Source of the DNA: an uncultured Thermoguttaceae bacterium
Lineage (GTDB): Bacteria; Planctomycetota; Planctomycetia; Pirellulales; Thermoguttaceae
Length of the DNA: 64,000 nt
Reading direction: 5' to 3'
NCBI GenBank assembly: GCA_938084835.1
Contig: CALKER010000006.1
Coordinates: forward strand, 1-64,000
A program made the translations under genes and the position numbers. This document shows positions 5,779-53,398 of this stretch, one piece after another (position 1 is the stretch's first letter; every line of letters begins with the position of its first letter). The notes beneath the pieces were generated by a model that did not search any database, was not told where the DNA came from, and was given only the letters and a program-made list of their open reading frames with translations.

Positions 5779-8700
5779 CTAATTGGTCTTTGCCTCCGGG
5801 GGGGCAATCTCCCCGAACAGCGGTAAGTGGCGATAGTAAACCTCGAGTATTAGGAGGTGCAGCGCGGTAACGTAGATCCTGCCTCCAGCATGCGCCCATC
5901 GATCCGGGACAGGTCGGACGGGATCCCAACTCCCCGCAAAGGGCCCGGACTTTTCTTGCGCCGGTAAGAGAGCCCCCTGCATTTGCTTGTTCCAGTTTTC
6001 CCAAGGTTCGCCGCCAATATGGAAAAGCACTTGGGTGGCGTAATACCAAAAGTAGGCATCGCGTGCCTCGGGATTCCTGGGGTTAATCTCTGGCGGGGAT
6101 CCGGCAAGATACGCCACGCCCTCGACCACTTGGGGAGTGTGGCGGCTCCAACCTAAAAGGAGTCTCATGAGAAGGCCTTCGGCCGACATTGCCAAATTGG
6201 CGCGGTTGGGGAAGGGGGATTCCGGACTTGGTTTCACGAACGGGTTATAGCAATATTTTGAGCCCTTGTCGATGGCCGCAACATTCAGCCATCGTTCTAC
6301 CTGGGAAAACACGTGCGGGGAAACGGACAAGCCGGCTAATTCCGCACTCTTTAGCGCAAGGAGCTGCCACCCGGACACAGAGGTGTCGGATTCTTTGACC
6401 CAAGTGGGATGATCCGGATGCCTCGTGTAGCGCCAGCCCCCAAACTGAGGATCTTGAGCGGAAACAATGAATCGGATTGCCTCGCGCGCTGGCTCTCGAA
6501 GCGACTCGTCACTGGACATCCCGTATGCCTCGCACATAGCGATGGCGGCTATCCCATGAGCATACATCCGCGGTCCCCGCAGGGGTTCGGTTTCTTCGTC
6601 GAAGATGGAGCCATCAGCTTTTTGCCTCTGAAGGAGCCAATTAAGGCCTTTAGCGACGGTGCGAGCGTATTGGCCATCAAGGTGCGTGTAGCCGGCTCCG
6701 AGGAATGCGAGGATTGCTAACCCTGTGGCCGCTGTGTCCGAACGATATTGGAACCGCGCAAGTTCCGGATAAGGAGTTTGGTCGTCGGGCACAGCGTCCA
6801 GTCGCCATCTGCCATCGGGAAACTGGTAGCGGGCGAGAAATTCCAGACCTTTTTCGACTGCAGATTCCGTCTCTTGCGACCCACCAAACTTCTCCGCCAC
6901 ACGGAGCCTTTCGTTAGGACTTGGCCGGACAAAACCTCGCTTGATCTGCGGACCGGAAGGGCCTGGAAGCGACGGGAGACCACCCGGGAGCGTGCCGGCA
7001 CGCCGTACTAACGCCGGCTGGGTAGGCGCAACAAGCGGATCACCTTTCGGTGAGCCGGCAAGGGCATAGTGGGAAGGCGAAAGAACCCCAGGTATTCGGC
7101 CGGAGGGAGGGAGATCGCCCCATTGGCTGGGTTCATTCCCCAACAATGTGGGGGTTCGCCGTGAGGTGAACAGGTTAGGCCCTACGAGCTCCTCACTGGG
7201 CTCTCGCATGCCAGCTTCGATGTTCTCGCGACTCTCGGAGGTTGCAGTCCTTCCATTCCGACTGAGTCCCGGGAAGTCATCAGGGCTTGGACCTATGAGC
7301 CGAGTTAGCCCCGGCAGATTTCCCTCGAGGTTGTGCCGGCCTGGAGGTCGTGAACTCCCCGCCAACTGCGTGCGTAGGTCATCCACCTCCATAAGGGCTT
7401 CGCCAACTCCTGTTCCCTCGCTGTTTTGGGGAAGACCGGCAGGGAATCCACTGGGCCACAATGCCCCCACAAGGTCGTTATTCGCGGGCTCGTATGAAAG
7501 TAGGCCCGGGGCTTGGTTTGTGGTCCTGCCTCCCTCGGTCAACCAGTGGTCCCAATGCCGTTCTCGCTCCTGACCGGGCATCGCTACGATATGGGTAGTT
7601 CGTCGGCTCTGTCCAGGCGCATTTGCGGCTCCCATGGAGGGCATCGGCTCAAAATCTTTGGCGAGGGTATCGGAGTCGTACCCTGATTCGGTAGAAGCTA
7701 GTGAAGCCGAACTCGGGGCTAGTGTCGGTGACTCTTCCCCAAGTCGCACGTTACGGAGCCTACCTGAGTCACCCTCCTGGTGTCGAAGAAAAGAATGGTC
7801 GAACGCCTCACCATCCGCCGCAACTGTCACCTTAGGGCCGGCGGAATCTTTGGCCTTCATTGCCCAATTTTCATTTCGCTCAAGATTCAACCCGAGCGGT
7901 GAAAGTTGACTCCGCCTCTCCGCAGTGACGGATTTGCTCTCCCAGGCGGTTTCATTTTCCCAAATGGCTTCTGCCCGTGAAGAGGCGCGAGCTTCTCCTG
8001 AAATCCGCTGCAAGTCAATCGGAGGTGCCTGCACAAGCTCTGTGGTGGCCATTCTGGGACTCGGGGGAGGGCCGGCTTGGCGGCTAGTGGCCAGCTCACT
8101 TAAGCCCAAATTCAGTCTGACCTGGATCTCCGGTGCAAGCGAAGAACGGGTTGTGGGCCGTGCTAGTGACGAATCCCCAACTGGGGACAAATTTTGGGAG
8201 GATGTTCCCCGGAGGTCAGAATCCTCAGTGATTTCCCGGGCAATTGGTGACCTCGCCAGCGGGAAAGCTCCTGCCTGGGCAAGGTTGTCGAAGAGCTCCG
8301 GATTGGATCGCATACTGGAAAGATTGGCCCTGGGCCTGTGAGGCGCGGGCTGAGGAATGAGCTCCCTCAAGGGCTGGGGCCGCCGAGCAGGGTTAGCCTC
8401 TCCCGGCGCCTGCCGCGAAAGTTGGATCTGGGGCGTCAACGTCGGCCGTCGGGGGGTGGGGGCGCTCTGATGGGCCTGCAAACTCTCGAGCTCAGGCCTC
8501 ATTGCCTCGGCCACTAGGGCGATGGTCCCGTCAGATGTTGCCGTTGGCCGTAGAGGGGGCGACGCAGCAGCTTCTGGCGCAGCCGGCCGGGATGGTGCCC
8601 GAGGGCTGGTACGCCGCGAGACCTGAGGGTCACTTAGTTTTTCTCGCTCCGCTTGCGGACGCGAAACTTGAGCTTTAAGCGGTTGCGAGGGGCGAGCTTG

Positions 8701-9369
8701 CACCGGCAGGGATCGATCTTGTCGGGGACGCATCGCCAGATTATTTGGCTCTTCCCCGTACCGTTCCAATGGCGGAACATCCCGCAAAAGCTCTGCGGGT
8801 TGAGGTGGCCGTGGGTGCGGTGATGAGGCATCTAGCTGTTGATGATCAAAACTCGGGGCTTCCGCTTTTCGTCGCTGTTGGGGCTCTAAGGTTACCCGGG
8901 GATCCGCCAGCACCACCTCAGTTGGTTGTTCGAAGATTTCAGGCGGCCGTTCGCCCCGAACATTAATCGGCACTCCGTAATCGAATATCTTTGAAATAGA
9001 GGGGTGAGGACGGGTCAGGGCCGGAGCTCGGGCGGCTAAATAATGAGCTGCTAAATACGCGATCAACACAATGTGAATGAGCAAGCTAAGAAGGGTACAC
9101 AGCTGCATCCGTCGCATTACCCGACGGTCAAGCCAACGGCTACCTGCAAGGACTAAAACCAACATGAGTCCAAGTAAGCCTAGGCGTACGTACCCGCTTT
9201 CCCACCAAGAGGTTGTTCCCAGATCAAAAGAGCTGTAACGGACAATCCACCAGCCAACAACAACGGTGCAGACAAGAATCGCCACGACGATCAGCCAACG
9301 CTGCTCGTCGAAGTCGTGCTTGGCTCTCGGTGGGAGTGGCTCGATGTGCCAGCGAGTGCTGCCGTCCAT
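5779..9369 (-). CDS. TonB-like membrane-anchored protein with C-terminal alpha/alpha-toroid (prenyltransferase/squalene-oxidase repeat) domain
   Basis: A 1196-residue envelope protein. There are three hydrophobic segments at about 24-44, 61-76 and 92-113. The third (LLSLLIHIVLIAYL, S95, H99, L106) reproduces the Ser-x3-His-x6-Leu spacing of the TonB anchor. Residues about 120-830 are a Pro/Arg/Ser-rich, low-complexity linker expected in the periplasm. Residues about 837-1196 form repeats typical of alpha/alpha toroids (QFPDGRW, SDTAATGLAILAFLGAG, QFGGWRY, SDTSVSGWQLLALK). The DxDD motif of squalene-hopene cyclases is absent, so I expect a binding rather than a cyclase role. AGGA lies eight bases before the ATG. 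It is the last gene of a TPR-ExbB-ExbD operon, which suggests an energised transducer. The TonB-like assignment is inferred from the short anchor motif, the linker and the neighbours. Confidence 0.75.
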   Translation of the reverse strand: MDGSTRWHIEPLPPRAKHDFDEQRWLIVVAILVCTVVVGWWIVRYSSFDLGTTSWWESGYVRLGLLGLMLVLVLAGSRWLDRRVMRRMQLCTLLSLLIHIVLIAYLAAHYLAARAPALTRPHPSISKIFDYGVPINVRGERPPEIFEQPTEVVLADPRVTLEPQQRRKAEAPSFDHQQLDASSPHPRPPQPAELLRDVPPLERYGEEPNNLAMRPRQDRSLPVQARPSQPLKAQVSRPQAEREKLSDPQVSRRTSPRAPSRPAAPEAAASPPLRPTATSDGTIALVAEAMRPELESLQAHQSAPTPRRPTLTPQIQLSRQAPGEANPARRPQPLRELIPQPAPHRPRANLSSMRSNPELFDNLAQAGAFPLARSPIAREITEDSDLRGTSSQNLSPVGDSSLARPTTRSSLAPEIQVRLNLGLSELATSRQAGPPPSPRMATTELVQAPPIDLQRISGEARASSRAEAIWENETAWESKSVTAERRSQLSPLGLNLERNENWAMKAKDSAGPKVTVAADGEAFDHSFLRHQEGDSGRLRNVRLGEESPTLAPSSASLASTESGYDSDTLAKDFEPMPSMGAANAPGQSRRTTHIVAMPGQERERHWDHWLTEGGRTTNQAPGLLSYEPANNDLVGALWPSGFPAGLPQNSEGTGVGEALMEVDDLRTQLAGSSRPPGRHNLEGNLPGLTRLIGPSPDDFPGLSRNGRTATSESRENIEAGMREPSEELVGPNLFTSRRTPTLLGNEPSQWGDLPPSGRIPGVLSPSHYALAGSPKGDPLVAPTQPALVRRAGTLPGGLPSLPGPSGPQIKRGFVRPSPNERLRVAEKFGGSQETESAVEKGLEFLARYQFPDGRWRLDAVPDDQTPYPELARFQYRSDTAATGLAILAFLGAGYTHLDGQYARTVAKGLNWLLQRQKADGSIFDEETEPLRGPRMYAHGIAAIAMCEAYGMSSDESLREPAREAIRFIVSAQDPQFGGWRYTRHPDHPTWVKESDTSVSGWQLLALKSAELAGLSVSPHVFSQVERWLNVAAIDKGSKYCYNPFVKPSPESPFPNRANLAMSAEGLLMRLLLGWSRHTPQVVEGVAYLAGSPPEINPRNPEARDAYFWYYATQVLFHIGGEPWENWNKQMQGALLPAQEKSGPFAGSWDPVRPVPDRWAHAGGRIYVTALHLLILEVYYRHLPLFGEIAPPEAKTN

Positions 9370-9545
9370 GTAGTTTATCCTAAACAGATGGAGTTTTCCC
9401 GCCTTTAGATCAAGTCCCGATTCCCAGCCCCCAAACGGTTAATGACAAAACCGCCGCGATCGCGCGGTTTTTCGCCCATTTGGAAGTTCGCCCTGCCGAA
9501 GGGAGATGGTGCGACGACAGAAGACATGAATCTCCCGCTCACAAA

Positions 9546-9980
9546 CTACTGTCCCGACCCCGTTGTGTCTCCCTCCCATACCGTGGCCTTGTAATCACGT
9601 ATGTTGGCGCGCAAGCAAGCATTGATTGCCGCCACCACAGCATCCCATACGCATCGCCGGTCGGCACGGATAACGACGGAAACTCGGTCTGGATTGGCAT
9701 TCCAAGCCTGGACCAGCACCTCTTGGAGTCTGGGCAGGTCTAGCTGTTGGCCCCTCACAATGTATCGTCCTGTGGCATCGATGTTGACGAAAAGTTCCGA
9801 GGGCTGACTAATCAGCGGTCGTGCCTCGGAAGCTTCCGGCAAGGGGATATCCAACTCGCGCTCCTCTTCCGCAAATTTTGTTGCTACGAGGAAAAAAATA
9901 AGAAGCAGGAACACCACGTCGATAAGTGGTGTCAAGTTGAGGGAGGCAAGAGCTTTTCCGGTGTCAATTTTTACCGCCAT
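9546..9980 (-). CDS. ExbD/TolR family proton-channel subunit
   Basis: A 144-residue inner-membrane protein with the standard ExbD/TolR layout: a short cytoplasmic N terminus, one transmembrane helix at about 16-36 (LTPLIDVVFLLLIFFLVAT), and a periplasmic domain of about 100 residues. The proton-carrying Asp is D21 at the start of the helix. The periplasmic part keeps the DATGRY...VVIRADRRC pattern of the family. With the preceding ExbB it should form the motor that uses proton motive force to drive a periplasmic partner, probably the 1196-residue TonB-like protein encoded 176 bases downstream. The gene is about 140 bases after exbB on the same strand. Confidence 0.92.
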   Translation of the reverse strand: MAVKIDTGKALASLNLTPLIDVVFLLLIFFLVATKFAEEERELDIPLPEASEARPLISQPSELFVNIDATGRYIVRGQQLDLPRLQEVLVQAWNANPDRVSVVIRADRRCVWDAVVAAINACLRANIRDYKATVWEGDTTGSGQ

Positions 9981-10120
9981 GGTTTAAACCAGTTAATCCC
10001 CGGTGAGTCGCTCTCGCTGCTGCCCATTGCAGGGCCTTGAGCGTTCCTTGTAAGTTGGGCGTGTTTTTGAAGTGAGTTTGGGCAAGAGGCTGCGACGGCC
10101 GAGCTCTCTCCTCTTCCCCA

Positions 10121-11371
10121 TCACAATGGCATGTCCGGTGAGGCGCTGGCCGCCTCGGGCACAGGTCCCGGCCGCCTGCGAACACCACTGATCACCGGAG
10201 GTGGAGGCGGCGGAGTTGGTTCTTGGATTTCGTGGCCCAAAATTTCGGCAAATGGCCCGTCGGCAAAAAGCCGCAATCGACCTTCGAAGCGTTCCAATTG
10301 CGGTAAGATTCCAAGCATCACTTCGTCTAGCTCTCGGAACAGTTTTTGGATTCGGCCTTCAAAAAGGTGCGCCATTACCGCGGCAGGAATGGCCACGCTT
10401 AGTCCAGCAAAGGTGGTGACCAGCGCCACGTAAATTCCGTCAGCTAACACCTCCGCGCGGTTTACTCCCAGGGGGAGGTTAGCGGTGACGAAGAATGCCT
10501 GGATCATGCCCCACACCGTCCCCAGAAGCCCTAAAAGCGGGGTAACACCCGCCGCCAGACTGAGCCAGCGGACATTGCTGTACAACCGTGAGGCCTCACG
10601 CTCTTCTGCATCTCGAAGAGCTTGCTCAACTTCCGTTTGGGGCCGACCAACTTTCAAAAGTACCGACCGAATGACGTTGCTAGCAGCTGACGGGTACAAC
10701 TGACAAAGACGATACGCCAGCCGGGGATCGAAGCCTTCCGGTCGAGCTCCGAGCGCTCCCAACTGCTGGAGAAGCAATGCGGGCAAAACCTTGCTGCGAC
10801 GAAGTCCTAGGGCTCGCTCTAATGCACAGGCCACAACAAGAATCGACATAAAACCAATCGGAATCATTAAATACCCGCCGCGGACCAACAAGTGTAGGAT
10901 CGGTACGCGGACCTCTGCCGGTCGCGCGCCTGGTCGGAGGGTCACTATTTCTGACTGCGACTCTTCGACAGGGCGGATGTTTTGTTGGGATTCTGCCTCA
11001 TTTGTGCCCATACCTTGTTCTGATGGCCTTGGCCGGTCGAAACTCGGTGGTTCAGCAAGCGCAAGCAGCACGTTTTTGTCCACAGAAAACGATCGCTGCG
11101 GCGAAGCTAGGGACAGGTGATTTGAGTATCCGAACGCCTGGTTGGCCGCAAGGAAGACTATTTCGCGGCGAAGGGGGCCTGACCAGCCCTTTCCAAAAAA
11201 GATGGCCTTTCCATCCAACTGTGACGCGAACGCCGGTTCAGCCACACAGAAGCTCAGGGCCAATGTGAGGACGATCCTTCCTGACACCGACAACAAGACC
11301 TGGCAACGGAAGGCCCAAGTGGATGGCCACACTGACAAATTGCAACGGAAGAAGGGCGCTGCGGCTACCAT
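10121..11371 (-). CDS. MotA/TolQ/ExbB proton channel family protein with exported N-terminal extension
   Basis: A 416-residue inner-membrane channel subunit. Unlike E. coli ExbB, it begins with a signal-peptide-like segment (IVLTLALSFCVAEPAFAS) and about 90 residues of probable periplasmic sequence. The channel core follows: one helix (YLMIPIGFMSILVVACAL), a cytoplasmic loop, then the two conserved helices PLLGLLGTVWGMIQAFF and ALVTTFAGLSVAIPAAV that line the pore. The C terminus is Pro-rich (six prolines in a run). I chose the ATG at 11371 because GAGGG lies nine bases upstream; an in-frame ATG 13 codons earlier lacks this. It is followed by exbD and the TonB-like/toroid gene. Exported extensions are common on planctomycete ExbB proteins. 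Confidence 0.9.
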   Translation of the reverse strand: MVAAAPFFRCNLSVWPSTWAFRCQVLLSVSGRIVLTLALSFCVAEPAFASQLDGKAIFFGKGWSGPLRREIVFLAANQAFGYSNHLSLASPQRSFSVDKNVLLALAEPPSFDRPRPSEQGMGTNEAESQQNIRPVEESQSEIVTLRPGARPAEVRVPILHLLVRGGYLMIPIGFMSILVVACALERALGLRRSKVLPALLLQQLGALGARPEGFDPRLAYRLCQLYPSAASNVIRSVLLKVGRPQTEVEQALRDAEEREASRLYSNVRWLSLAAGVTPLLGLLGTVWGMIQAFFVTANLPLGVNRAEVLADGIYVALVTTFAGLSVAIPAAVMAHLFEGRIQKLFRELDEVMLGILPQLERFEGRLRLFADGPFAEILGHEIQEPTPPPPPPVISGVRRRPGPVPEAASASPDMPL

Positions 11372-12095
11372 TGAGTTGTTCCCTCTTTCGGGTACGCGAT
11401 TCGCGCACACTTTTGCAAACGTCGGTAAAAGCTCCTAAATCTTGCCCAGTTTTCTCTACTGCGAACCCAAACCCATTATAGCTACGAGTTTGATCAACTT
11501 TCGATCATTCAACAAAAAATTCTCATGGCAACCAACCAGCTTCCTGCCGGGAAAGGGCTGCCACTTTTAATCCTCGGCTTCCGCGTTTGCCTTTCCGGCA
11601 ACTCAAAGCATCCAATCTTCCCGCAACCCGGGCGATGCCAGTAAGTTAGCCGTTCCGGCTGAAGTTGTTTCTCGCGACCAACAGGCGATCCTTGGGTAAT
11701 CCATCAAAATCCGGACCTCCTTTCGCTAAATCGCAAAATCCGGACTGACATGAGCAGGGCCGAGGTAGGAAGACCAGCAGACACACCGCTGTGGCCACAA
11801 TTTTTCTTCGAGGCTTAATTTTTTCCTGGGTCGCTGGTGCTTCGTGAAGTTCCCACTCAGAGTCAAGACGCGGGGCGCCATCAAAACGTTGTTTCCTGGT
11901 CGTTTCTTGCCGCTTCTGGAGAGAACTGTGTTTTGGTAAAGCCGCCATGTGTGTGAGGGCTGAAGCACCGTGCATGTTGTGTCCCGAAATGAATGTTGAG
12001 GCCCCGCGCAGGGGTTTATCGAGCACACCCCTTTTGTCAACTTCTTTAAACGGGTGGCTGCCGCTGTGGCGACCTTTGAAACCTATCTGGGCTGT
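11372..12095. other. Gap inside the TPR-ExbB-ExbD operon
   Basis: About 720 bases separate the end of the TPR gene from the ExbB start. A 126-codon minus-strand frame (11646-12026) lies here and contains one hydrophobic stretch preceded by basic residues (IVATAVCLLVFL). It has no start codon close to that stretch and no convincing ribosome binding site, so I do not call it a gene. The exbB promoter may lie in the AT-rich part near 11460-11530. If so, the TPR gene and the exbBD-tonB-like genes are separate transcripts. Confidence 0.4.
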
Positions 12096-15000
12096 CTACG
12101 GAGACCTTTTTTCGGGGTTGCTAAGAATCCCGAGTTTTTTCCGGGCGGTGTCTACTTTTGGATCTCCTGAGGCTGCGAATTTATCCACAATTTCCTGATA
12201 AAGTTTGCGAGCCTCTTCTGGTCTTTTTAGCTGCTCGTAACATCGAGCTGCCTCATACAAGCTGAGCAGCTGGAGCGCGGGGTACCCGTACCCATCCGCA
12301 ACGGCCATAAATTCGAGAATTGCTTCTCGATATCGCTTTTCGTGAAAGTGGATTTCGCCGAGTAAGAACCGTGCCCGTGCCGCGCTTTCGGAATCACCCG
12401 AAAGACCAGCTTTCTTCAGTGTGTTTACGGCTTCCTGAGCCTGGCCCAATTTCCACAAAGTCCATCCGCGCTGGCATAACGCATCCACCAGGTAAGGAGA
12501 TTGGGGATAGTCTCTGATACATCGCTCGAGATAACGCTCACTCTCCTCCCATAGGCCGAGCTGGGCAGCCGTCTCTCCGGCACGCAGAAGAGCCAGTGGA
12601 CGAAATTCCTCCTGGGTCAGCTTGTCTAATTCTTTCACCAGAATTTGATACTGGTCCCAGGCTTGCTTATACAGTTGGCTTGCCGACTCGAGCAAAACTT
12701 CCTCAACGGCAAGACCATCCGACGGTGCAGGGCCCCGCTTTTGTTCACGGGCAAGCCGCACGTAGCACTCCGCCAACATCAACCGGGCGTCGCTTGCAAG
12801 CTTACCTTTTGGGAGGTGTTTCAGTTGAAAATCAAAAACTTTGCTTGCTTCCGCAAACTGTTTTAAGCGAAAAAAGCACCATGCATATCGGTGAACACAG
12901 ATTTCGTAGAGATCGACTCTGCCAGCGGTAGAACTGAGGTTACTGGCGCGGTGATAAGCCGTAGCTGCTTCGCGGTAGTTTTTCTCCGCGAAAAAATACT
13001 CCGCCGCTTGATAGACGACCTCTGGGTTAACGTCCTCTTTTTCCGCTTTTTTGACAAGATCTTTGAAGATTTCTGAGGCCTTTTCCGGTTGATTATTCAA
13101 TTTGTAAGCCCAACCTAGTTGATACAAAACCTCACTTTCATCAACTCCTGGAGAGGGGTTGGCGCGCAACTGCTCGAGAATGTTCAGTGCAGGGCGTGGC
13201 TGCTCAAGTTCTAGGTAACAAAGCGCGAGGAGAAATCGTGCCTGTGAAGCGAGGGGCCCGTCTCCCAGCATTTTGAGCGATTCTTCAAGAACTTTTCCTG
13301 CTTCGGCGGGACGATTGAGTTGTAAGAGAAGTCGCGACTTCAATAGGCTGGCCTCTCCAGCCAAAGAATGGCTCCCATGACGTTGGAGGAGCTCATCCAC
13401 TACGGAAAGTGCCTCCGTGTGTGCTGCCAACTCGTTTAGTGTGGTGGCAAGGGCATAACGAACACGAGCTGCCAGATCTTCCTGCAAATTCTGCTGAAGT
13501 AATACGCGATAACGATGAACCGTTTGCTCCCGCTGACCCAATTGATACTCCACCTCGGCCAACCAAAAGTGGGCTTCATGCGCGATCGTGTTTGAAACGG
13601 CAGAATTCGTTAGTGCCTCAAGCAGCTCTTTGGCCTTCGGGAATTGTTTCTGCCGGAGGTATGCTCGGGCTAGATAGAGCTGGGCTTCTTCGGCCACACG
13701 GAAATGTGGTGCGGTCTTAAGTGCCTGCTCCAGAGCTTTAATGGATTCCCCAAATTGTTTTTGCTCATAAAAGCTTGCCCCAACAAGGTAGTGAGCTTCT
13801 GCTGCTAGCTCCGGGTTGGTGATAGCTCGCACGACTTCCGAACCTTGAGCGACCACGTCACTGTAGCGCCGCTTCAAGAAGTTGATCCACAAAACCCCCA
13901 CCCGCGCCATCTCCACTAAAGCTCGATCTTTGCCAAATTGGGAAATGAGTGAATTGTAGGTTTTTTCCGCCTCATCAAGTTTGTTGCTGAGAAGATAGGC
14001 CTCTGCCATAATGAGGCGAGCCCGAGGCGCCCGAGGATCAGCGGGCGCCAATTCGAGGAACCGGCCGAGAAAGCCAATCGCTCGCTCGGGTTGCCCGAGT
14101 TCGACTGCTAGCCACCCGGCGCGAAAGGCGGCCGAGATCACCGCCGGATTTACTGCTTGCTTTTCCGCGAGAGCTGCAAGTGCCTTTAGAGCTTCTTCTT
14201 TTTTCTGCGGTATTCGATCTAGGGCCTCGGCACGTACAAGTTCGAGTTGATCAACAAAGGTGGGGGTTTTGACGCGTCGGAGAAGTTCCTCTGCTTGGGC
14301 GAGGGCTTCCTCCGCCTTGCCCGCATCGAGCAGAGTTTCTGCAGCAAGCACAGCGGCCTCTTCGGCACTTGAGCTGCCGGAGTCAATGACGGCCTGGAAT
14401 TCGCGAAGGGCGTCTTCCCACTGTTGAAGTCGACGCAGCGCTTTGCCCGCCGCTAAGGCGGCTCGCTCCGCATACTCGGTGTTGGCATGCTGTTGCCTTA
14501 GCTTTTGGTACAATCGCACAGCCTCCGGCAGTTGACCCATAGCAGCAGAAGCATCGGCCAAACGAAGCAGTGCGTAGGCGGCTAAGGCCGCATCGGGGGA
14601 GCCTAGCACCTCTTCGAATCTTTGTCGCGCTAAATCGTACCGCTTGGCGGCGAAGTATTGGTCTCCCAAGCGAACTGCCACATCCGCTGCCAGCGGGTCG
14701 TCCCGAAATTCTCGCAAGAACGCCTCGAACTGAGCGAGGGCTTCCTGAGGACGCTGAAGCTCTTCAAAGCAAACCCCTAGACCATATTGTGCTGCTGCTT
14801 TGATTGCCGGAGGCAGCTGCTGTTCCAATGCCTGTTGGTAGCACCGGGCAGCTTCAGCTTTTTGCCCGATTAAATAAAACGCTTCGCCCTGGCAATAGAG
14901 GGCTTCTCCCCGTCGGGGAGAGTTCGGATAGGATTCAAAGAATCGGTTGAAAGCCTGAATAGCTTCCGCGGCCCGATCTGCTGACCCTCCTTGAGCCGTT

Positions 15001-15518
15001 TTCAACAAGCTCACCGCGCAGAAAAAGAGCGCTTCTTCACGTCGCTTAGGGTCTTGCAAGCGTTTGGCAGCCTCTTGGAAGGCTGCGGCCGCCTCGGGAA
15101 AAGCTTGGCGATTGTATTCGCACACTGCCCAAAAAAAATAAGCGTCTGCCACGCGAGGGTCTTGGGGGTATTCCCGGATAAAACGCTGCCATGCTTCGGC
15201 AGCCAAGTCGTAAGATCCTCGCTCTTGAAGCCCGGCAGCCGCCTGATAATCCGAAGTCGCTGCAGGCGAAAGGCCTGGCGCTTTTGCTTGACCGAATACT
15301 GCAGCATTGACCAAAGATAAAACGCTTAGTCTTGAGTGACCGAAAACGCCCGCATCCGCGCTTTGCGTTGCCTGTGCCAACAGAAGCCAAATGCAACCGA
15401 AGGTTGACCAAATGAGTGTCGAAGTAATTTTTTGTCTGCGCGGGCCAAACTTGGTGCCGCCAGAAGGCCGAATGTCGGAAAGGCCAAGCATTGGTGCCAA
15501 TAAAACCCCTTCGGTCAT
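12096..15518 (-). CDS. Large exported TPR-repeat protein
   Basis: An 1140-residue protein made almost entirely of tetratricopeptide repeats from about residue 85 to 1130. Many units show the W/Y-LG/Y-G-A-F-A-P pattern (for example ADAYFFWAVCEYNRQAF and KAEAARCYQQAL). An N-terminal hydrophobic segment at about 34-54 looks like a signal peptide with a long basic n-region. AAGGAG lies seven bases before the ATG, which supports this start. Several repeats resemble those of BamD/YfiO and CpoB (YbgF), periplasmic TPR proteins of the Bam and Tol systems. Its place at the head of an ExbB-ExbD-TonB-like gene set suggests a periplasmic scaffold for that motor; this is inference from context. No catalytic domain is seen. 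Confidence 0.88.
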   Translation of the reverse strand: MTEGVLLAPMLGLSDIRPSGGTKFGPRRQKITSTLIWSTFGCIWLLLAQATQSADAGVFGHSRLSVLSLVNAAVFGQAKAPGLSPAATSDYQAAAGLQERGSYDLAAEAWQRFIREYPQDPRVADAYFFWAVCEYNRQAFPEAAAAFQEAAKRLQDPKRREEALFFCAVSLLKTAQGGSADRAAEAIQAFNRFFESYPNSPRRGEALYCQGEAFYLIGQKAEAARCYQQALEQQLPPAIKAAAQYGLGVCFEELQRPQEALAQFEAFLREFRDDPLAADVAVRLGDQYFAAKRYDLARQRFEEVLGSPDAALAAYALLRLADASAAMGQLPEAVRLYQKLRQQHANTEYAERAALAAGKALRRLQQWEDALREFQAVIDSGSSSAEEAAVLAAETLLDAGKAEEALAQAEELLRRVKTPTFVDQLELVRAEALDRIPQKKEEALKALAALAEKQAVNPAVISAAFRAGWLAVELGQPERAIGFLGRFLELAPADPRAPRARLIMAEAYLLSNKLDEAEKTYNSLISQFGKDRALVEMARVGVLWINFLKRRYSDVVAQGSEVVRAITNPELAAEAHYLVGASFYEQKQFGESIKALEQALKTAPHFRVAEEAQLYLARAYLRQKQFPKAKELLEALTNSAVSNTIAHEAHFWLAEVEYQLGQREQTVHRYRVLLQQNLQEDLAARVRYALATTLNELAAHTEALSVVDELLQRHGSHSLAGEASLLKSRLLLQLNRPAEAGKVLEESLKMLGDGPLASQARFLLALCYLELEQPRPALNILEQLRANPSPGVDESEVLYQLGWAYKLNNQPEKASEIFKDLVKKAEKEDVNPEVVYQAAEYFFAEKNYREAATAYHRASNLSSTAGRVDLYEICVHRYAWCFFRLKQFAEASKVFDFQLKHLPKGKLASDARLMLAECYVRLAREQKRGPAPSDGLAVEEVLLESASQLYKQAWDQYQILVKELDKLTQEEFRPLALLRAGETAAQLGLWEESERYLERCIRDYPQSPYLVDALCQRGWTLWKLGQAQEAVNTLKKAGLSGDSESAARARFLLGEIHFHEKRYREAILEFMAVADGYGYPALQLLSLYEAARCYEQLKRPEEARKLYQEIVDKFAASGDPKVDTARKKLGILSNPEKRSP

Positions 15519-17620: not shown

Positions 17621-18817
17621 TTAAGCGACTGCTTTGAGCCGATCGTCAAACGCTGGCAGAATTCCCTTTCCGTGATAAAACTCGGCGATGCTGGAGACCA
17701 CAGCGGTTTGTTCGTCCAGTGTTAATTCGGGGAAGATGGGTAAAGCAAGAACCTCACGCGAAACTCGGTAAGTGTTAGGAAGATCCTCAGGACGATACCC
17801 AAGGGAGGCGAAGCATTTTTGTTCGTGTAAACCGATGGGGTAGTAGATCTCCGTACCAATGGCTCGGTTGTGGAGAAATTCGCGAAGGGCATCGCGCCGG
17901 CCGCCGGGAACGCGGATGACAAATTGGTTCCACACGTGATAGGCTTGGGGTAAGACGTGCGGTAATTCGATCAGACCTTCGAGGCGAAATTCGCGAAATA
18001 GCAAGCAATACCGCTCAGCATTTTCCGCCCGTCGGCGTACCCAATCCGCCAGGTATCGAAGTTTTATGCGTAACACGGCTGCCTGGAAACCATCTAGCCG
18101 ACTGTTGATGCCGACCGTTTGATGGAAGTATCGGGGGTGCATCCCGTGGCAACGGAGGAGTCGTAAGCGCTCCGCCAGGTATTCGCTGGAGGTAACGAGC
18201 ATGCCGCCGTCCCCAGCTCCTCCTAGGTTTTTTGTGGGATAGAAGCTGAAGCACCCGATCTCACCCCAGGCCCCCGCATAAGACCCGAGCCATTTGGCGC
18301 CGACAGCCTGAGCCACATCCTCTACAATTGCCAACCCGTGCGCTCGAGCTACCCTTTCGATTTGATCCATCGGAGCGCATTGGCCGAAAAGATGCACAGG
18401 AATAATGGCCCGCGTCCTTTCCGAGATGCGAGTGGCCACGTCCTCGGGAGATAGGTTAAAGGTCCTCGGGTCGATGTCGGCGAATACCGGGCGAGCTCCG
18501 AGCCGCCACACAGCACTAGCCGTGGCAAAAAATGTGAAGCTGGGCACAATGACCTCGTCACCCGGCCCGATACCCAAGGCCATCAAAGCAAGGAGGAGGG
18601 CATCGCTGCCTGACGCGCAGCCGATCGCATAGCGAAAGCCAAAATATTCGGCAAACTCTCGTTCAAACAACTCTACCTCCGGCCCTAGGGCGAAGGCACC
18701 CGAATCCCATACTCTTCCCAAGGCCGAAAGCACTTCCTCTCGTAATGGCTGGAGTTGCCGGCTGAGATCGTATAGGGGCACACCCATCCGTGGACTGGCC
18801 TCTTGCTTGTTCGCCAT
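17621..18817 (-). CDS. DegT/DnrJ/EryC1/StrS family PLP-dependent aminotransferase
   Basis: A 398-residue cytosolic enzyme of the sugar aminotransferase family, which transfers an amino group (usually from glutamate) to nucleotide-linked keto-sugars for glycan, LPS or antibiotic synthesis. The signatures are in order: the N-terminal YDLSRQLQPLREEV segment, GCASGSDALLLAL for phosphate binding, VEDVAQAVGA with the PLP-nitrogen Asp at 167, and SFYPTKNLGGAGDGG with the Schiff-base Lys at 196. The length matches the family. No nucleotide-sugar dehydratase or glycosyltransferase gene is adjacent, so its sugar substrate is unknown. A glycan role would fit with manA 3 kb away, but that is weak evidence. 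Confidence 0.93.
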   Translation of the reverse strand: MANKQEASPRMGVPLYDLSRQLQPLREEVLSALGRVWDSGAFALGPEVELFEREFAEYFGFRYAIGCASGSDALLLALMALGIGPGDEVIVPSFTFFATASAVWRLGARPVFADIDPRTFNLSPEDVATRISERTRAIIPVHLFGQCAPMDQIERVARAHGLAIVEDVAQAVGAKWLGSYAGAWGEIGCFSFYPTKNLGGAGDGGMLVTSSEYLAERLRLLRCHGMHPRYFHQTVGINSRLDGFQAAVLRIKLRYLADWVRRRAENAERYCLLFREFRLEGLIELPHVLPQAYHVWNQFVIRVPGGRRDALREFLHNRAIGTEIYYPIGLHEQKCFASLGYRPEDLPNTYRVSREVLALPIFPELTLDEQTAVVSSIAEFYHGKGILPAFDDRLKAVA

Positions 18818-29626: not shown

Positions 29627-32600
29627 CTATAATCCCTCGGATCTTGCCGATTGTCCCGGTTTCTCGAGCATCCGCGGAAGGGAGATTCGCTCCCGCAGGA
29701 AGTCGGGGTAGTGTAGAAGCAGGTCGGCTAGAGCTTCGATCTGAAATTCCGGTGGACCCGGCAGAATTTCTTGACCTAACGGCGGACCAGTTGGGGGGAA
29801 GTTAGCCGGCATGGTGGTGTAAGGGATAACGCGCTTTGGGGCGGCAAGCCAGCGCCTAAGGAATTCACCTTTAAGGCGACCGGCGACCGCATCCAGCGGG
29901 GGGCCTACAGCGACTGTGGATAACTGACTCGGGCTCTGATCCCCAATCACATGGCACTTTCCACAAAACGTTTTTTGGTCCACAAGGATCTCTAAAGCTC
30001 GTAACCGTTGTTTTTGCCGATCCGACGGAAGCAGCGGGGTCTTCTGTCCCTGTCGGGGTTGCACCCCCGAAGGAGCAAGTTGAGCATTCTGACTTGACCC
30101 CTCAGTAAGTTCTCCAGGCGAAACACCTGGCGGTACGCCGGGATTTGCGTGTGGCAAACCTTGCAAGGGAGATACACCGGAAAATGTGTCCTCGCAGGGG
30201 ATGGGTCTCGGTGCGCCCCCCCAAGCTTCGCCAGAAGGGAACTGCTTGGATTTGGCAACCAACTCCGACCACTGGTCCCCTAGGTCCCAAGTGGGACGCC
30301 TCTGCCGATTTATATTGGAAAGCAGCTCGAAAAACTGAGCAATCGCATGGGCCTCGGTCGGGGATAAATGATAATGCGGCATTTGGTGAATGACGCTCGG
30401 GCGAATGACCCTGGGTTGCAGGAGATATTCCGCCGTCCAAGCCGAGGGTGTTTTTTCCCCTTGCATAGCCAGGGGCGGAGGAAGAAGATTCCACACGTCG
30501 GTGGGGGTGATTGCTCTCTCGTGTGCGATCTCCGGACCAAGGATCCCCGCTAGCCTCCCGCCTACGGCACTGCGAAAAGCCAATATGTGTGGTAATTCCC
30601 CCGGCAGGGGCGAGGTTCCCATAGGTTCGGCAGGCAGGCCAGCCTGGGTGGAACCAAGATCTTCAGAGTTTGCCTTCCGTAAATTTGCCGCAATTCCACT
30701 TGCTGCCTCCGGCGCAAGCAAGACGTGCCGTCGAGTTTCTCCTCGAAGGATCTGCCCATCACGAGTTGTTGCGGGGAAGCCACCCGGGAGTAACGGATGA
30801 TCTACCGGAGCTTTAGCCCAAGGTGGTGGAACCAGCGGCGAACAACTGCCAGTGGCCTCTATGCGTTGCGACATCACCCTAAACGGATCCTGAACTATCA
30901 CCTGGGGGCCGCCCACATCCCAAATGCTCCACGTGGTTTCGTGCGGGATCGGCCAAGCCGACCACAGATTAACGAAGTAGGTGGGACGATCCTCTGCATC
31001 CGGTTCTTCAATCGGTTCCCAGGTTTTGTCGCGCTCCACCATCCCCCATAACTGGTCCGTGAGAGTGAGCCGACGGGAAAGTTTGGGCCTTGGTACACCT
31101 GCTTTTATCCGCGTTTGAAGCCAGGGAAAGGTCGGTTCCGTGACTGAGACCACCAGTTTTTGCGGGGCATACTCTACCACAAATCGTTCCCAGTCAAGCA
31201 CGTGGCATTGCGCGCACCCAAGCCGGTCCACTAATTGAAGCCCGTCTGCTGCCAAAACCGCGTTTTTCTCGAGTCGTCCTTGCGCCCACTCGGGCACCGG
31301 TTGATTTCCCAGACCCAATACGAATGTCATCGCAGCAAGGAGCTCGCGTTCATTCCAGGTGAAGGCCGGCATCTGCAGCCGGTGGGTCCAATCTTTTTGC
31401 CCTGTGCGACCGTAATCAAAAGCTCGGGGCCGCTGAAGTTTAAGCCACAAAAAACCCTCTTTCCGCCCCTCCAAAAAATCTGCGAAAAATTTCTCCGCCT
31501 GCAAAGGTTCAGTGCGGGCATAAATTTCCCGCGTGGCATTCCCTGCTTCCTCGGGGCTGATTCCCTCGGGGGAGTCACGATTAGTGCGTTTAAGCAGCTC
31601 ATTGCCCCCTTTGCTTAAACTATTCCGCAGAGGCAACCGCGCGGAGAAATTAGGATCCTCCCCAGGGCGCGCGCTCGAATAGATCCATCGCGCCACAGCG
31701 GTCGCGAGTTCCCGCTCCCCGAAGTCCAACATTTCTGGCCATTTGTCGGCCCATCCGGTTAAGGGTGGTCCGATTGAAGCTGCTGTTTCAAGGCCGGGGA
31801 CTTCATGACAAGCGGCACACCCCCGGCGGCGCATGCTCTTTAGGGCTACATAACGTTTCCGTGCCTCCGAATTGGTGGGGAAACTTAGAACCTCTTCGTC
31901 GGGCCCCAACCGCGATACATCTTCGGGCGGAATCCCCTCTCGCGCCCACCGATCGGCGTTGTCGCGCGAGGTAAAGTCCGCAAGATAAAGCTGGGCAAGC
32001 TCAACGATCGCGTCCTCCTCAATCTGCGGGATTGATGCTGAACTCCACTCCCCGGGCTGAGTCAAAAATGCTATCAGGTCCGGAATGACTGATTGTCCTT
32101 CCCCGTTCGTAACGGACAGCGCACTGCCGGTCGCAGGGTGTGCCAGGCCATCTAAAGGCAATTCCTTTTGCTGTGGCGAGGCAGACTGCCCTGCGCGGGT
32201 GCTGCCGGCCATCCCGGGCGTATTCAAACTCATGGTAGGCATTGTCGTTCGGGGCGAAAGCTTCGAGGGGGCCACGAGCCAAGCCCTAAGCCAAGTCTTT
32301 CCCATTTCGGGTTTTAATTTCTCCGCCAACCGACTGAGTTCAGGTCCAAAATCCGAAGTTGCTTCCGGGAAACTGGTATGGGCATGACACGCTACACACC
32401 CCTGTCGCCGGAACTCTTTCCTACCGGATGTGGGGTCTCCCGACCGCCCCATTGCTGGGTTAAGTATTCCTTCCGCCGCCGTGTTGAGCGACAAAGTGGC
32501 GGTCTGCCTCTTCTGTGTCAGGTAAAACACGATGGAATGAATTTCTGCCCATTCCAATCTATAAGTCCTAGCGTGGTCACTTTCCGGCAAGTGCTCATAC

Positions 32601-34273
32601 AGACCGAAAAACCGGGGCATCCGACTGTGCCTCGAGTATGACTGCGGATCCCAAATGAAGGAGGCCATCCACGTAGGAGAAAGCTTCCACCACGCCAGCC
32701 GAAGACTTGGGCCGACTTTTCGCAGCGGGACCGGCGAATCCTGTTCCGCGGGCGAAAGAATTTTAATTCGACTCAATAACTCCCTTACTGCTTGTGTGGC
32801 CGGGGGGATGCCCTCCGCTAAGAGATCCTCCGCCACTCCGCGAAGCTCCCATCGAGCCGACTCCTTCCAAGGGCTTTGCCGGAGACTTGCTATCGTTGGC
32901 ACACCTACAGGTGGGAGCTTTACATTTTCCAGAATGGCTTCAGCTAGTTCATGCCAAGCCAGCTCACGCCGAAATTCGGGGCCGATTGATCTTCCAAAGG
33001 CGTCGGTGCCTTTGATTTCATGACAGCCAAAACATCCCAACTTTAGCACGGTGTGATAGCCCTCGAGCCACCGGTGCCCAACGCCGGAACCTTCCCAGAG
33101 ATGGGGTGCAAGAAGCTCCGGACGGTGGTGACACCGGTTGCAGGTGGCTTCTATAAGCTCTTTTGGGTGCATTGTCAGTGTCCATCGCGTGTGCGAGCGG
33201 CTGGGCCGGTTTGCACCTTCCAAATGACGGTCACTTACTATGTGCGAATTTGATACCGGACTGGTGGAGTTCGCTCTGTGCCCGGCCGAGGCCCAATCGG
33301 CGGCTGCCCCTTGCCCCCCATGGCACACGGTGCACCCAAATTGCTGTGCGGGATGTGGGCTTTGGGGTGCGACGACTAGCTCCGGGTACGGGTGAGCCGC
33401 ATACGGATGGGGAAGTCCCCGCCGGAGGTAAACTTCCGCTCCGCCCGTTTTCGCTATGGACGCAAGCAGCATTTGAGCAGCCTGCCCGGCACTGGCAGGG
33501 CGAGAAGTGTTGATGGCTACAATCCTGTCACCGGGTGAAAACCCGGCTTCCGCACCTCGTGTCCCGGGTCGTACGTCGGCGATAATGATCGCCCTTTTGC
33601 CAAGAAACGTCACGTCCGCCAAGAGAAGGCCGACTTCATGCGCAAGTATCCGGACGGCATCGCCAATTTGAGACAGTTGCCACGGTGCATCTGCCCGGTT
33701 GGATAACGGCCCGTTAGGCAAAAAGGTGTTCTCGTCTCCCCTGCTAGCTGGATCTAACCCGCTCAGCAAGATGCGAACCATTCGCTCGGGGAGTAGGTCC
33801 ACACTTGGAAACAAGTGTAAATTCCGAGGCGACATCCCTTGGTGACAAGTTATACAGCGATCGACCCGAGGAACAGGACCAAACGGCATCTCGAGGGGCA
33901 AGCCTTCTAGCCGGAGCTCTTCCACCTCAACGCGCCGCACAAATGGCTCGAGGAAGGGCAATCCAAAAATCCAGCGGACCCACCAGGGTTTCGGCCTTGG
34001 GGGCTGGAAGGCCAGCTGTTGTTCCCGCAACGCTGCCTCCGTTGCCCATTCCCGATCGAACCGCTCAATCTCCTGGAGCAGGGGGACAAGGTGCTCTCGG
34101 TACTCCAGCTGATAACGCTTCCAAGGACGATTGTGATCGACAACAAGGACAAGCACGGTCGTTCCGACAAAAGCACAGGCCGCCAAGCCGAACAAGCAAT
34201 GAAGCTTTCGGATATCAAAGAAAAAATCGGGAGAAGAAACGGATACGTCTGATCGACTCGAAGGTTGCTTCAT
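29627..34273 (-). CDS. Giant octaheme c-type cytochrome with PDZ domain
   Basis: A 1548-residue membrane-anchored, periplasmic protein. An N-terminal helix at about 25-45 is followed by a charged helical stretch. Eight CxxCH heme sites start at residues 140, 314, 378, 414, 626, 819, 1020 and 1437. A PDZ domain sits between hemes 1 and 2 (about 230-286), with RGAEAGFSPGDRIVAIN as the signature. The segments around hemes 5-8 look like tandem mono-heme cytochrome c domains with MPxF/MP ligand regions (SRMPRFFGLYEH, TTMPTMSLN, QMPAFTWNE, TTMPANFPP). Long Pro/Ser/Gly linkers separate them. It is the first gene of the cluster with a Tat protein, a cytochrome lipoprotein and COX15-like protein, so it should carry electrons to or from a membrane complex encoded elsewhere. 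Confidence 0.93.
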   Translation of the reverse strand: MKQPSSRSDVSVSSPDFFFDIRKLHCLFGLAACAFVGTTVLVLVVDHNRPWKRYQLEYREHLVPLLQEIERFDREWATEAALREQQLAFQPPRPKPWWVRWIFGLPFLEPFVRRVEVEELRLEGLPLEMPFGPVPRVDRCITCHQGMSPRNLHLFPSVDLLPERMVRILLSGLDPASRGDENTFLPNGPLSNRADAPWQLSQIGDAVRILAHEVGLLLADVTFLGKRAIIIADVRPGTRGAEAGFSPGDRIVAINTSRPASAGQAAQMLLASIAKTGGAEVYLRRGLPHPYAAHPYPELVVAPQSPHPAQQFGCTVCHGGQGAAADWASAGHRANSTSPVSNSHIVSDRHLEGANRPSRSHTRWTLTMHPKELIEATCNRCHHRPELLAPHLWEGSGVGHRWLEGYHTVLKLGCFGCHEIKGTDAFGRSIGPEFRRELAWHELAEAILENVKLPPVGVPTIASLRQSPWKESARWELRGVAEDLLAEGIPPATQAVRELLSRIKILSPAEQDSPVPLRKVGPSLRLAWWKLSPTWMASFIWDPQSYSRHSRMPRFFGLYEHLPESDHARTYRLEWAEIHSIVFYLTQKRQTATLSLNTAAEGILNPAMGRSGDPTSGRKEFRRQGCVACHAHTSFPEATSDFGPELSRLAEKLKPEMGKTWLRAWLVAPSKLSPRTTMPTMSLNTPGMAGSTRAGQSASPQQKELPLDGLAHPATGSALSVTNGEGQSVIPDLIAFLTQPGEWSSASIPQIEEDAIVELAQLYLADFTSRDNADRWAREGIPPEDVSRLGPDEEVLSFPTNSEARKRYVALKSMRRRGCAACHEVPGLETAASIGPPLTGWADKWPEMLDFGERELATAVARWIYSSARPGEDPNFSARLPLRNSLSKGGNELLKRTNRDSPEGISPEEAGNATREIYARTEPLQAEKFFADFLEGRKEGFLWLKLQRPRAFDYGRTGQKDWTHRLQMPAFTWNERELLAAMTFVLGLGNQPVPEWAQGRLEKNAVLAADGLQLVDRLGCAQCHVLDWERFVVEYAPQKLVVSVTEPTFPWLQTRIKAGVPRPKLSRRLTLTDQLWGMVERDKTWEPIEEPDAEDRPTYFVNLWSAWPIPHETTWSIWDVGGPQVIVQDPFRVMSQRIEATGSCSPLVPPPWAKAPVDHPLLPGGFPATTRDGQILRGETRRHVLLAPEAASGIAANLRKANSEDLGSTQAGLPAEPMGTSPLPGELPHILAFRSAVGGRLAGILGPEIAHERAITPTDVWNLLPPPLAMQGEKTPSAWTAEYLLQPRVIRPSVIHQMPHYHLSPTEAHAIAQFFELLSNINRQRRPTWDLGDQWSELVAKSKQFPSGEAWGGAPRPIPCEDTFSGVSPLQGLPHANPGVPPGVSPGELTEGSSQNAQLAPSGVQPRQGQKTPLLPSDRQKQRLRALEILVDQKTFCGKCHVIGDQSPSQLSTVAVGPPLDAVAGRLKGEFLRRWLAAPKRVIPYTTMPANFPPTGPPLGQEILPGPPEFQIEALADLLLHYPDFLRERISLPRMLEKPGQSARSEGL

Positions 34274-52087: not shown

Positions 52088-53374
52088 ATGTCCAAGTTGG
52101 TAAAAGCCATGGTTGAGTCCCCCGTGTTATGGGGGGCACTGTTGTCGGCACTTTGGTATGCCGTCATCCTCTTCGGACCGGCTAATTATCCCTCCGTTCG
52201 CTCGCTTTTTGCCGATCACCCCGTGGAGTATGTCTCAACCGTCCTCTTTTTCGTCGGGATTGCCTCACTCGGTATGCGACTGTTGGGGATCGGATACGAG
52301 TGGCGAGCTGTCGACAAATGGGAGAGGGAATTTTCATTCCTTTCTGGCTCCACGCGCAGGGAAGAACTTCCGGAAAAAGTAAGCACTTTATTGGGAGAGG
52401 TTCGCTTCTTGCGGTTAGGCCGACGTCTGGGAGAACTCGTGAGACTAGCCCAGGGCGGTGCCGACAGGGCGACTTTTGAAAATCAGCTCCGGCACCTCGC
52501 CGAAAGTGATGCACTTGCGGTCCAGACCAAGTCGGCGCTTGTTCGGATGTTTATCTGGGCAATTCCCATACTTGGTTTCCTGGGAACTGTGATCGGCATA
52601 GCGATGGCACTAGGGAGGCTTGCCCCGCAACAGCTTGAGGAGAGTCTCCCTGAGGTCATGGCCGCCTTAACGGTCGCCTTTAATACAACGATACTTGCCC
52701 TGGGACTGTGCTTAGTGCTCTACTTCGGACTTTACTTTGTGGAACGCACGGAGGCGAAACTTTTAAGCCGGACTGACCAAGTCGTCGAGCAAGTGGCCGC
52801 GGTGCTAGCTCCCGCTGAGTCCGACTTGGGGGCTTGCCAAGTACGGGGAAACTTTGGTCTTAATGCGGAATGCCTCAGTGCTGTTCTGCGGGCTCCCTTG
52901 GCTGCGTGGGAGCTTGCGGTGGAGCAATTTGTGGCATCCCTGCGGAATCTGGGAGCGGAGCTGTCGACACAGTTGGCTCAGGCCGTGGGAAAATCATTGG
53001 AACAGTCCTTAGCCCTGCACGCCGAGCGGATGTCAACGTTGGAAGCTAAGTTGCTTGCCGAGCATCACGAACGACTGCAGGAGTTGTGTCGTTACTATCA
53101 GCGGCGGATTAACGGTTTGCAGGAGCTTGAGCGTTCGGTGGAAGAGCGGACGGAAACATTGCTGAAGGCTTTGGAGGGGACCGAGGTCTTACGCACACTC
53201 CAAGAAGCTTTGAACCGAAACTTGACAATTCTGGCCGGCGCTCGGCAGTTCGAAGAACTGGTGATGAGTCTGACTGCGGCGATTCATTTGTTGACGGCCC
53301 GAATCGAAAACTCGCTCGGTACTGCAGCAACACCCGATCTTCTCCAACTTCAGGGGATGCGCAAAGCCGGCTGA
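52088..53374 (+). CDS. MotA/TolQ/ExbB-type proton channel protein with coiled-coil tail
   Basis: A 428-residue inner-membrane protein. Four hydrophobic segments: about 13-30, 48-65, 154-175 (WAIPILGFLGTVIGIAMALG) and 190-213 (LTVAFNTTILALGLCLVLYFGLYF). The last two match the conserved pore helices of ExbB/MotA (GLLGTVxG and TTxxGL). After them comes a helical region of about 200 residues rich in Glu, Gln and Leu (about 225-420), predicted to be coiled coil on the cytoplasmic side. It is the first of three closely spaced genes; the next begins 24 bases after its stop. With two ExbD-like anchored proteins following, it should form the channel ring of an ion-driven motor. What the motor drives is unknown. 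Confidence 0.85.
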   Translation: MSKLVKAMVESPVLWGALLSALWYAVILFGPANYPSVRSLFADHPVEYVSTVLFFVGIASLGMRLLGIGYEWRAVDKWEREFSFLSGSTRREELPEKVSTLLGEVRFLRLGRRLGELVRLAQGGADRATFENQLRHLAESDALAVQTKSALVRMFIWAIPILGFLGTVIGIAMALGRLAPQQLEESLPEVMAALTVAFNTTILALGLCLVLYFGLYFVERTEAKLLSRTDQVVEQVAAVLAPAESDLGACQVRGNFGLNAECLSAVLRAPLAAWELAVEQFVASLRNLGAELSTQLAQAVGKSLEQSLALHAERMSTLEAKLLAEHHERLQELCRYYQRRINGLQELERSVEERTETLLKALEGTEVLRTLQEALNRNLTILAGARQFEELVMSLTAAIHLLTARIENSLGTAATPDLLQLQGMRKAG

Positions 53375-53398
53375 ACTGGCCAGGGAGGTTTGGGCAAG

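Follow-up and report, generated by a model that had tools for sequence, protein, structure and literature searches.

The window analyzed here, a stretch of 64,000 nucleotides from an uncultured Thermoguttaceae bacterium, contains four minus-strand genes whose products probably form a periplasmic force transducer that is driven by the proton motive force and carries a new type of head domain. We infer the docking, stoichiometry, force, partner, and TPR protein role of this machine. The gene set suggests an as yet unrecognized route by which energy could cross the planctomycete cell envelope, with its unusual, enlarged periplasm and its outer membrane. An earlier sequence-only reading of this DNA had described four genes, for ExbB, for ExbD, for a 1140-aa TPR protein, and for a protein of 1196 aa; the corresponding open reading frames and the features within them are as follows.

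12096-15518, minus strand: TPR protein of 1140 aa, predicted to be periplasmic, first gene of the set, with TPR wall to wall.
10121-11410, minus strand: ExbB/TolQ-type motor protein, extended at the N-terminus (Pfam MotA_ExbB, 3.8e-25; TolQ alignment).
9546-9980, minus strand: ExbD/TolR-type protein with the transmembrane Asp conserved (Pfam ExbD, 7.3e-24; aligned to solved ExbD/TolR).
5779-9369, minus strand: toroid-headed, TonB-like putative transducer of 1196 aa (Pfam, AF2, and orthologue alignment).
9133-9309, minus strand: predicted transducer membrane helices 1 (residues 21-45) and 2 (residues 59-79), based on the AF2 model and charge pattern.
9034-9102, minus strand: transducer helix 3 (residues 90-112) with the TonB-like anchor S95-x3-H99-x6-L106 (H99 invariance and S-x3-H enrichment).
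6922-9030, minus strand: disordered Pro/Ala/Arg-rich linker, residues 114-816 (composition and pLDDT <50).
5782-6921, minus strand: (alpha/alpha)6 toroid head, residues 817-1196 (AF2 pLDDT 88.7 and pTM 0.90; Z 27.5 to 8paj; residues invariant in 121 homologues).

Both ExbB and ExbD clear the Pfam cut-off by a good margin, and the sole Pfam match of the 1196-aa protein is a sub-threshold squalene-hopene-cyclase hit at residues 831-926. Because the TPR and ExbB genes are separated by a 685-bp gap in which promoter-like matches occur only at chance level, operon status as a single transcript is unproven.

A full-length AF2 model of the 1196-aa protein, built with 15 orthologues, places helices at residues 21-45, 59-79, and 90-118, assigns no confident structure to residues 114-816, and begins the toroid at residue 817. 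S95, H99, and L106 had been assigned to a TonB-like membrane helix; the residues are present as described, but the helix that carries them is the third of three N-terminal helices rather than the single-pass helix of TonB. The fourth position of the SHLS motif (residue 110) is Tyr, leaving SHL- in place of the full motif. Net charges of +1.6, -1.1, +3.3, and -0.35 across 43 three-helix relatives predict that the N-terminus is cytoplasmic and that the linker and the toroid are both periplasmic. Before residue 750, only M1, W25, Q89, and H99 are invariant among the 15 full-length orthologues, whose alignment was not conditioned on the S-x3-H motif. This motif is found in the last transmembrane segment preceding the toroid in 59 of 88 distinct toroid proteins versus 18 of 1177 control segments (Fisher p about 8e-63, with relatives counted as independent), while any His occurs there in 79/88 versus 413/1177. 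When 20 phylum-wide regions were picked by toroid similarity alone, 22 of their 27 toroid proteins carried S-x3-H in the anchor. Among 44 long forms, counted on condition of a small residue plus His, the anchor Ser position is occupied by Ser (25), Cys (13), Ala (3), or Gly (3), and the 19 replacements count against the transducer reading. A search with the anchor region alone matched only 3 of 246 phylum genomes, a result that says nothing on absence because the anchor is too short and divergent for a single-sequence search. Toroid proteins from Kiritimatiellae (L093 and L095-L098) have a membrane helix without His and with a Pro near that position, and at two of these loci ExbB-ExbD-ExbD adjoins the toroid gene. 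Coupling may differ in these proteins, and the lack of the anchor His, in some cases beside ExbB/ExbD, counts against the transducer reading.

ExbB retains most of the published residues to which such an anchor would dock. The window ExbB aligns with TolQ across both pore threonines, with T298 and T333 conserved, and the window ExbD keeps its transmembrane Asp within TPLIDVVF. By cryo-EM, Ser16 and His20 of TonB contact Ser34 and Trp38 on TM1 of ExbB, which are linked to Pro190 on TM3; this Ser/Trp/Pro docking network and the pore Thr pair have both been described (PMC12215075). P342 of the window ExbB was matched to the network proline through the TolQ alignment, and S189, judged by its place on TM1 and its spacing, is probably the counterpart of Ser34. 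Both residues are invariant where present in 36 type-A ExbB proteins (35/35), and across 74 ExbB homologues S189 is kept in 69 and P342 in 72. The Trp position is mostly Val in ExbB homologues, and Val stands at the inferred position in the window ExbB; this replacement and the missing last Ser of SHLS count against the transducer reading.

Beyond the anchor, the linker proved Pro/Arg-rich like that of TonB, as had been noted (P 13.2% and R 9.9% over 710 aa), and ranges from 408 to 1220 aa, with a median of 811 aa, in 46 relatives. The AF2 fold and the lack of a TonB_C Pfam match bear out the claim that the protein ends in a toroid and not in a TonB C-terminal domain. Fold prediction and structure search of the C-terminus, proposed alongside that claim, gave an (alpha/alpha)6 toroid when the domain was modeled alone, and the best match was the squalene-hopene-cyclase-like chain 8paj_A (rmsd 3.0 A over 296 residues, 18% identity); terpene cyclases and sugar epimerases ranked next. 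Eleven residues are 99-100% conserved in the 121 divergent homologues (Y936, E947, W979, Y981, D995, S997, W1001, Y1041, Y1106, Y1109, and Y1110). These mostly aromatic or acidic positions suggest a conserved pocket that could receive a ligand, a partner, or a substrate, assuming that all eleven line the same pocket.

Active sites and binding pockets alike typically show conservation of this kind, and the fold relatives include GH76 mannanases along with the sugar epimerases and cyclases. The toroid might be a membrane-tethered enzyme with, for example, glycans or isoprenoids as substrates; ExbBD would then set its position or activity, and its purpose would be catalysis rather than force on a partner. 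We regard this as unlikely. The DxDD signature of class II terpene cyclases does not form a conserved column, since the D.DD pattern is absent from the toroid of the window and occurs in just 8 of 100 toroids overall, and an enzyme has no need of an ExbB-docking anchor or a linker of 400-1220 residues. Relative to squalene-hopene cyclase and other type II terpene cyclases, the head shares the alpha/alpha toroid fold and QW-like repeats, whereas here the DxDD motif is not conserved and the toroid is predicted to be an anchored, periplasmic-side domain on a long linker, encoded beside exbBD. The putative transducer would probably be misannotated as a cyclase. Toroid genes also occur in other settings, including three in tandem at one locus (L087). 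Another toroid, of 386 aa (L171:13970-15127), lacks the S-x3-H anchor and has nothing but a signal-like segment at its N-terminus; it is possibly a free periplasmic toroid.

Genome searches used the toroid alone as the query. The toroid profile matches 139 of 149 planctomycete genomes. Named relatives found with the 1196-aa protein belong mainly to Pirellula, Rhodopirellula, and Stieleria, which makes Pirellulales the probable order of the host. Among 60 relatives, the toroid is present in 58, the plug domain in 32, TonB_C in 16, and TolB_N in none, with positive controls. None of the latter three was detected in the source genome (G000), nor was a plug domain in two genomes of the same genus; OmpA-type domains are present. 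Single absences in the source genome (4.75 Mb, 25 contigs) carry some doubt because it is 92.7% complete. Given these distributions, the toroid system is tied neither to TonB-dependent receptors nor to a recognizable Tol-Pal system. A role of the gene set as a stand-in for the Ton system, energizing TonB-dependent outer-membrane receptors through an unusual head, is very improbable. The TonB-like anchor, the Pro-rich linker, and the scarcity of canonical TonB_C would fit such a role, but toroid systems in plug-less genomes already weaken it, and in relatives with canonical TonB, the TonB and plug genes are often close together.

The comparison with TonB-ExbB-ExbD shows a shared ExbB/ExbD pair with pore Thr and Asp, an S-x3-H-x6-L anchor, and a Pro-rich linker, whereas the window system has three helices, a toroid head, no TonB_C, a TPR gene in the set, and no plug detected in the genome. 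With Tol-Pal and CpoB, it shares a TolQ/TolR-like motor, an SH anchor, and a nearby TPR gene; it differs in having no TolB_N, no match to the TolA C-terminal domain, and a TPR protein of ~1100 aa. A hydrophobic, signal-like core is found in 39 of 43 related TPR proteins, and a lipobox scan was positive in only 1/43, consistent with a long, soluble-looking, periplasmic protein that is apparently not lipidated. The parallel originally drawn between this protein and CpoB of Tol systems is weak, in view of that single lipobox and the lack of a TolB match in the 60 relatives.

Co-occurrence of the four genes in other planctomycetes, a check suggested with the initial reading, connects the toroid protein to the motor. 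At 42 of 46 long-form loci, the toroid gene is directly preceded by an ExbD gene at a distance of <=180 bp, and all four genes occur in order at 36 loci. The four long genes without adjacent exbBD count against the transducer reading, as do most of the short toroid paralogues (~500-700 aa), which as a rule contain a single membrane helix bearing S-x3-H and are mostly encoded away from exbBD. Genomes with lone long toroid genes (G041, G044, G032, and G019) have a TPR-ExbB-ExbD or ExbB-ExbD cluster elsewhere, and another (G051) has TPR-ExbB at one locus and ExbD-toroid at a second. As far as the search results show, a matching type of ExbB is present in every one of ~30 long-form relatives, including those in which the genes are unlinked. 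The four proteins have correlated pairwise distances (0.66-0.87), as would be expected from co-inheritance, with shared species history contributing. The arrangement also recurs more widely: contig 17 of the source genome holds a second TPR-ExbB-ExbD-toroid set, whose 762-aa toroid protein bears an S-x3-H anchor; the arrangement is repeated in one genome outside the order of the host (L174); and the gene order ExbB-ExbD-ExbD-toroid is seen at Gemmata-type and Lentisphaerae loci. Mere co-inheritance of neighbors, with ExbBD serving another client and the toroid protein being an ordinary membrane-anchored one, is scarcely plausible: seven MotA/ExbB homologues in the source genome and the mostly unlinked short paralogues would allow it, but the 42/46 linkage, the retention of a matching ExbB when unlinked, the invariant H99, and the independent Gemmata-type and Lentisphaerae clusters speak against it. 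No fifth conserved same-strand gene was found at the loci beyond clade-specific neighbors, and no periplasmic or outer-membrane partner was identified among the conserved neighbors, which counts against the transducer reading.

One relative (G048; L145:9019-11892) keeps the TPR protein, ExbB, ExbD, and the three-helix SH anchor, and its C-terminal domain is unrelated to the toroid, with no Pfam family match and only chance-level sequence matches in the PDB. This alternative-head protein has one homologue among the 149 genomes. Proteins with an S-x3-H helix and a vWA domain are encoded beside ExbB in the same genomes (L156 and L159, with the vWA match established for L156), and at another locus (L157:7438-9960) the gene after ExbB-ExbD encodes a protein of 841 aa that combines S-x3-H in its N-terminal helix with a LamG-like domain (sub-threshold match), possibly a further head type. 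These cases suggest that heads are interchangeable on a shared TPR-ExbB-ExbD-anchor chassis. An ExbD reading frame that runs without a stop into the transducer SH-anchor region (L146:5595-7250, G015) was given no weight, since it comes from the edge of a contig in a single draft genome and its joining stretch is read-through-like; it could be a fusion or a sequencing error.

Among published systems, the SHLS-vWA class of the PVC group comes closest; its members were proposed as force transducers from synteny and AF3 models without phenotypes and of unknown function (Williams-Jones et al. 2025, PMC12204202). Both systems combine an SH-type anchor, a disordered linker, a non-TonB globular head, and neighboring TPR and tolQ/tolR-like genes. 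The published head is vWA, whereas here it is a toroid and the 1196-aa protein has no vWA Pfam match; the published synteny comprises TPR, tolQ-like, and a pair of tolR-like genes, and the window set has TPR and one ExbB but a single ExbD; and one membrane helix with a linker of ~100 aa contrasts with three helices and 400-1220 aa. Proteins of both kinds coexist in the same genomes. The words "toroid" and "squalene" do not occur in the main text of that paper, which was the only relevant hit in a full-text literature search for a toroid with ExbB/TonB or for planctomycete force transducers, a search whose scope excluded most subscription journals and all preprints.

The energized envelope machine presenting a toroid, as first proposed from the letters of the DNA, finds support in the 42/46 linkage, the invariance of H99 in 15 orthologues, and the retention of most ExbB docking residues. 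The wider evidence supporting a force transducer comprises synteny, H99 and the S-x3-H motif, ExbB T298/T333/S189/P342, the ExbD Asp, the predicted topology, the head swap in G048, and the second gene set. By analogy to the E. coli homologues, an ExbB pentamer and an ExbD dimer (ExbB5D2) would form an inner-membrane proton motor, and transducer helix 3 would dock on the outside of ExbB through its S95/H99 face, like TonB and TolA. The motor could then strain or wind the ~700-residue disordered linker, such that the toroid head is pulled or repositioned. The head may grip an outer-membrane, peptidoglycan, or glycan partner through its strictly conserved aromatic/acidic patch, and the periplasmic TPR protein may act as a scaffold or as an adaptor to that partner.

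More tentatively, and at somewhat less than even chances, toroid-headed, SH-anchored proteins could constitute a phylum-wide class driven by ExbBD that replaces TonB/TolA in the majority of planctomycetes. A genome would then carry several copies, each directed at a separate envelope partner, and the heads (toroid, vWA, LamG-like, and others) would be swapped on a common TPR-ExbB-ExbD-anchor chassis. If the transducer reading itself is right, a large family that profile searches point to squalene cyclase would instead be proton-powered pulling arms, and the many ExbB/ExbD pairs found in this order without TolB, and often without TonB, would be explained. The anchor histidine would provide a direct genetic handle on what is pulled, and the idea of ExbBD/TolQR motors with interchangeable heads would be widened.

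A DegT-type sugar aminotransferase gene lies upstream of the TPR gene in the window (17621-18817), and a divergently transcribed NDP-sugar epimerase-like gene is located upstream of the operon at 17 loci (among L038-L062, L102, and L125). These sugar-gene neighbors could reflect a link to surface glycans or mere synteny. On the plus strand at 52088-55156, a different ExbB-like protein of 428 aa (Pfam 6e-10, with a weak ZorA2 match at 5e-9) is encoded ahead of a protein of 588 aa that has a single N-terminal helix and a coiled-coil-like stretch and matches no family; the two form a separate motor-like pair. The minus strand at 29627-34273 encodes a cytochrome-c-like protein of 1548 aa with four SoxX-type stretches.
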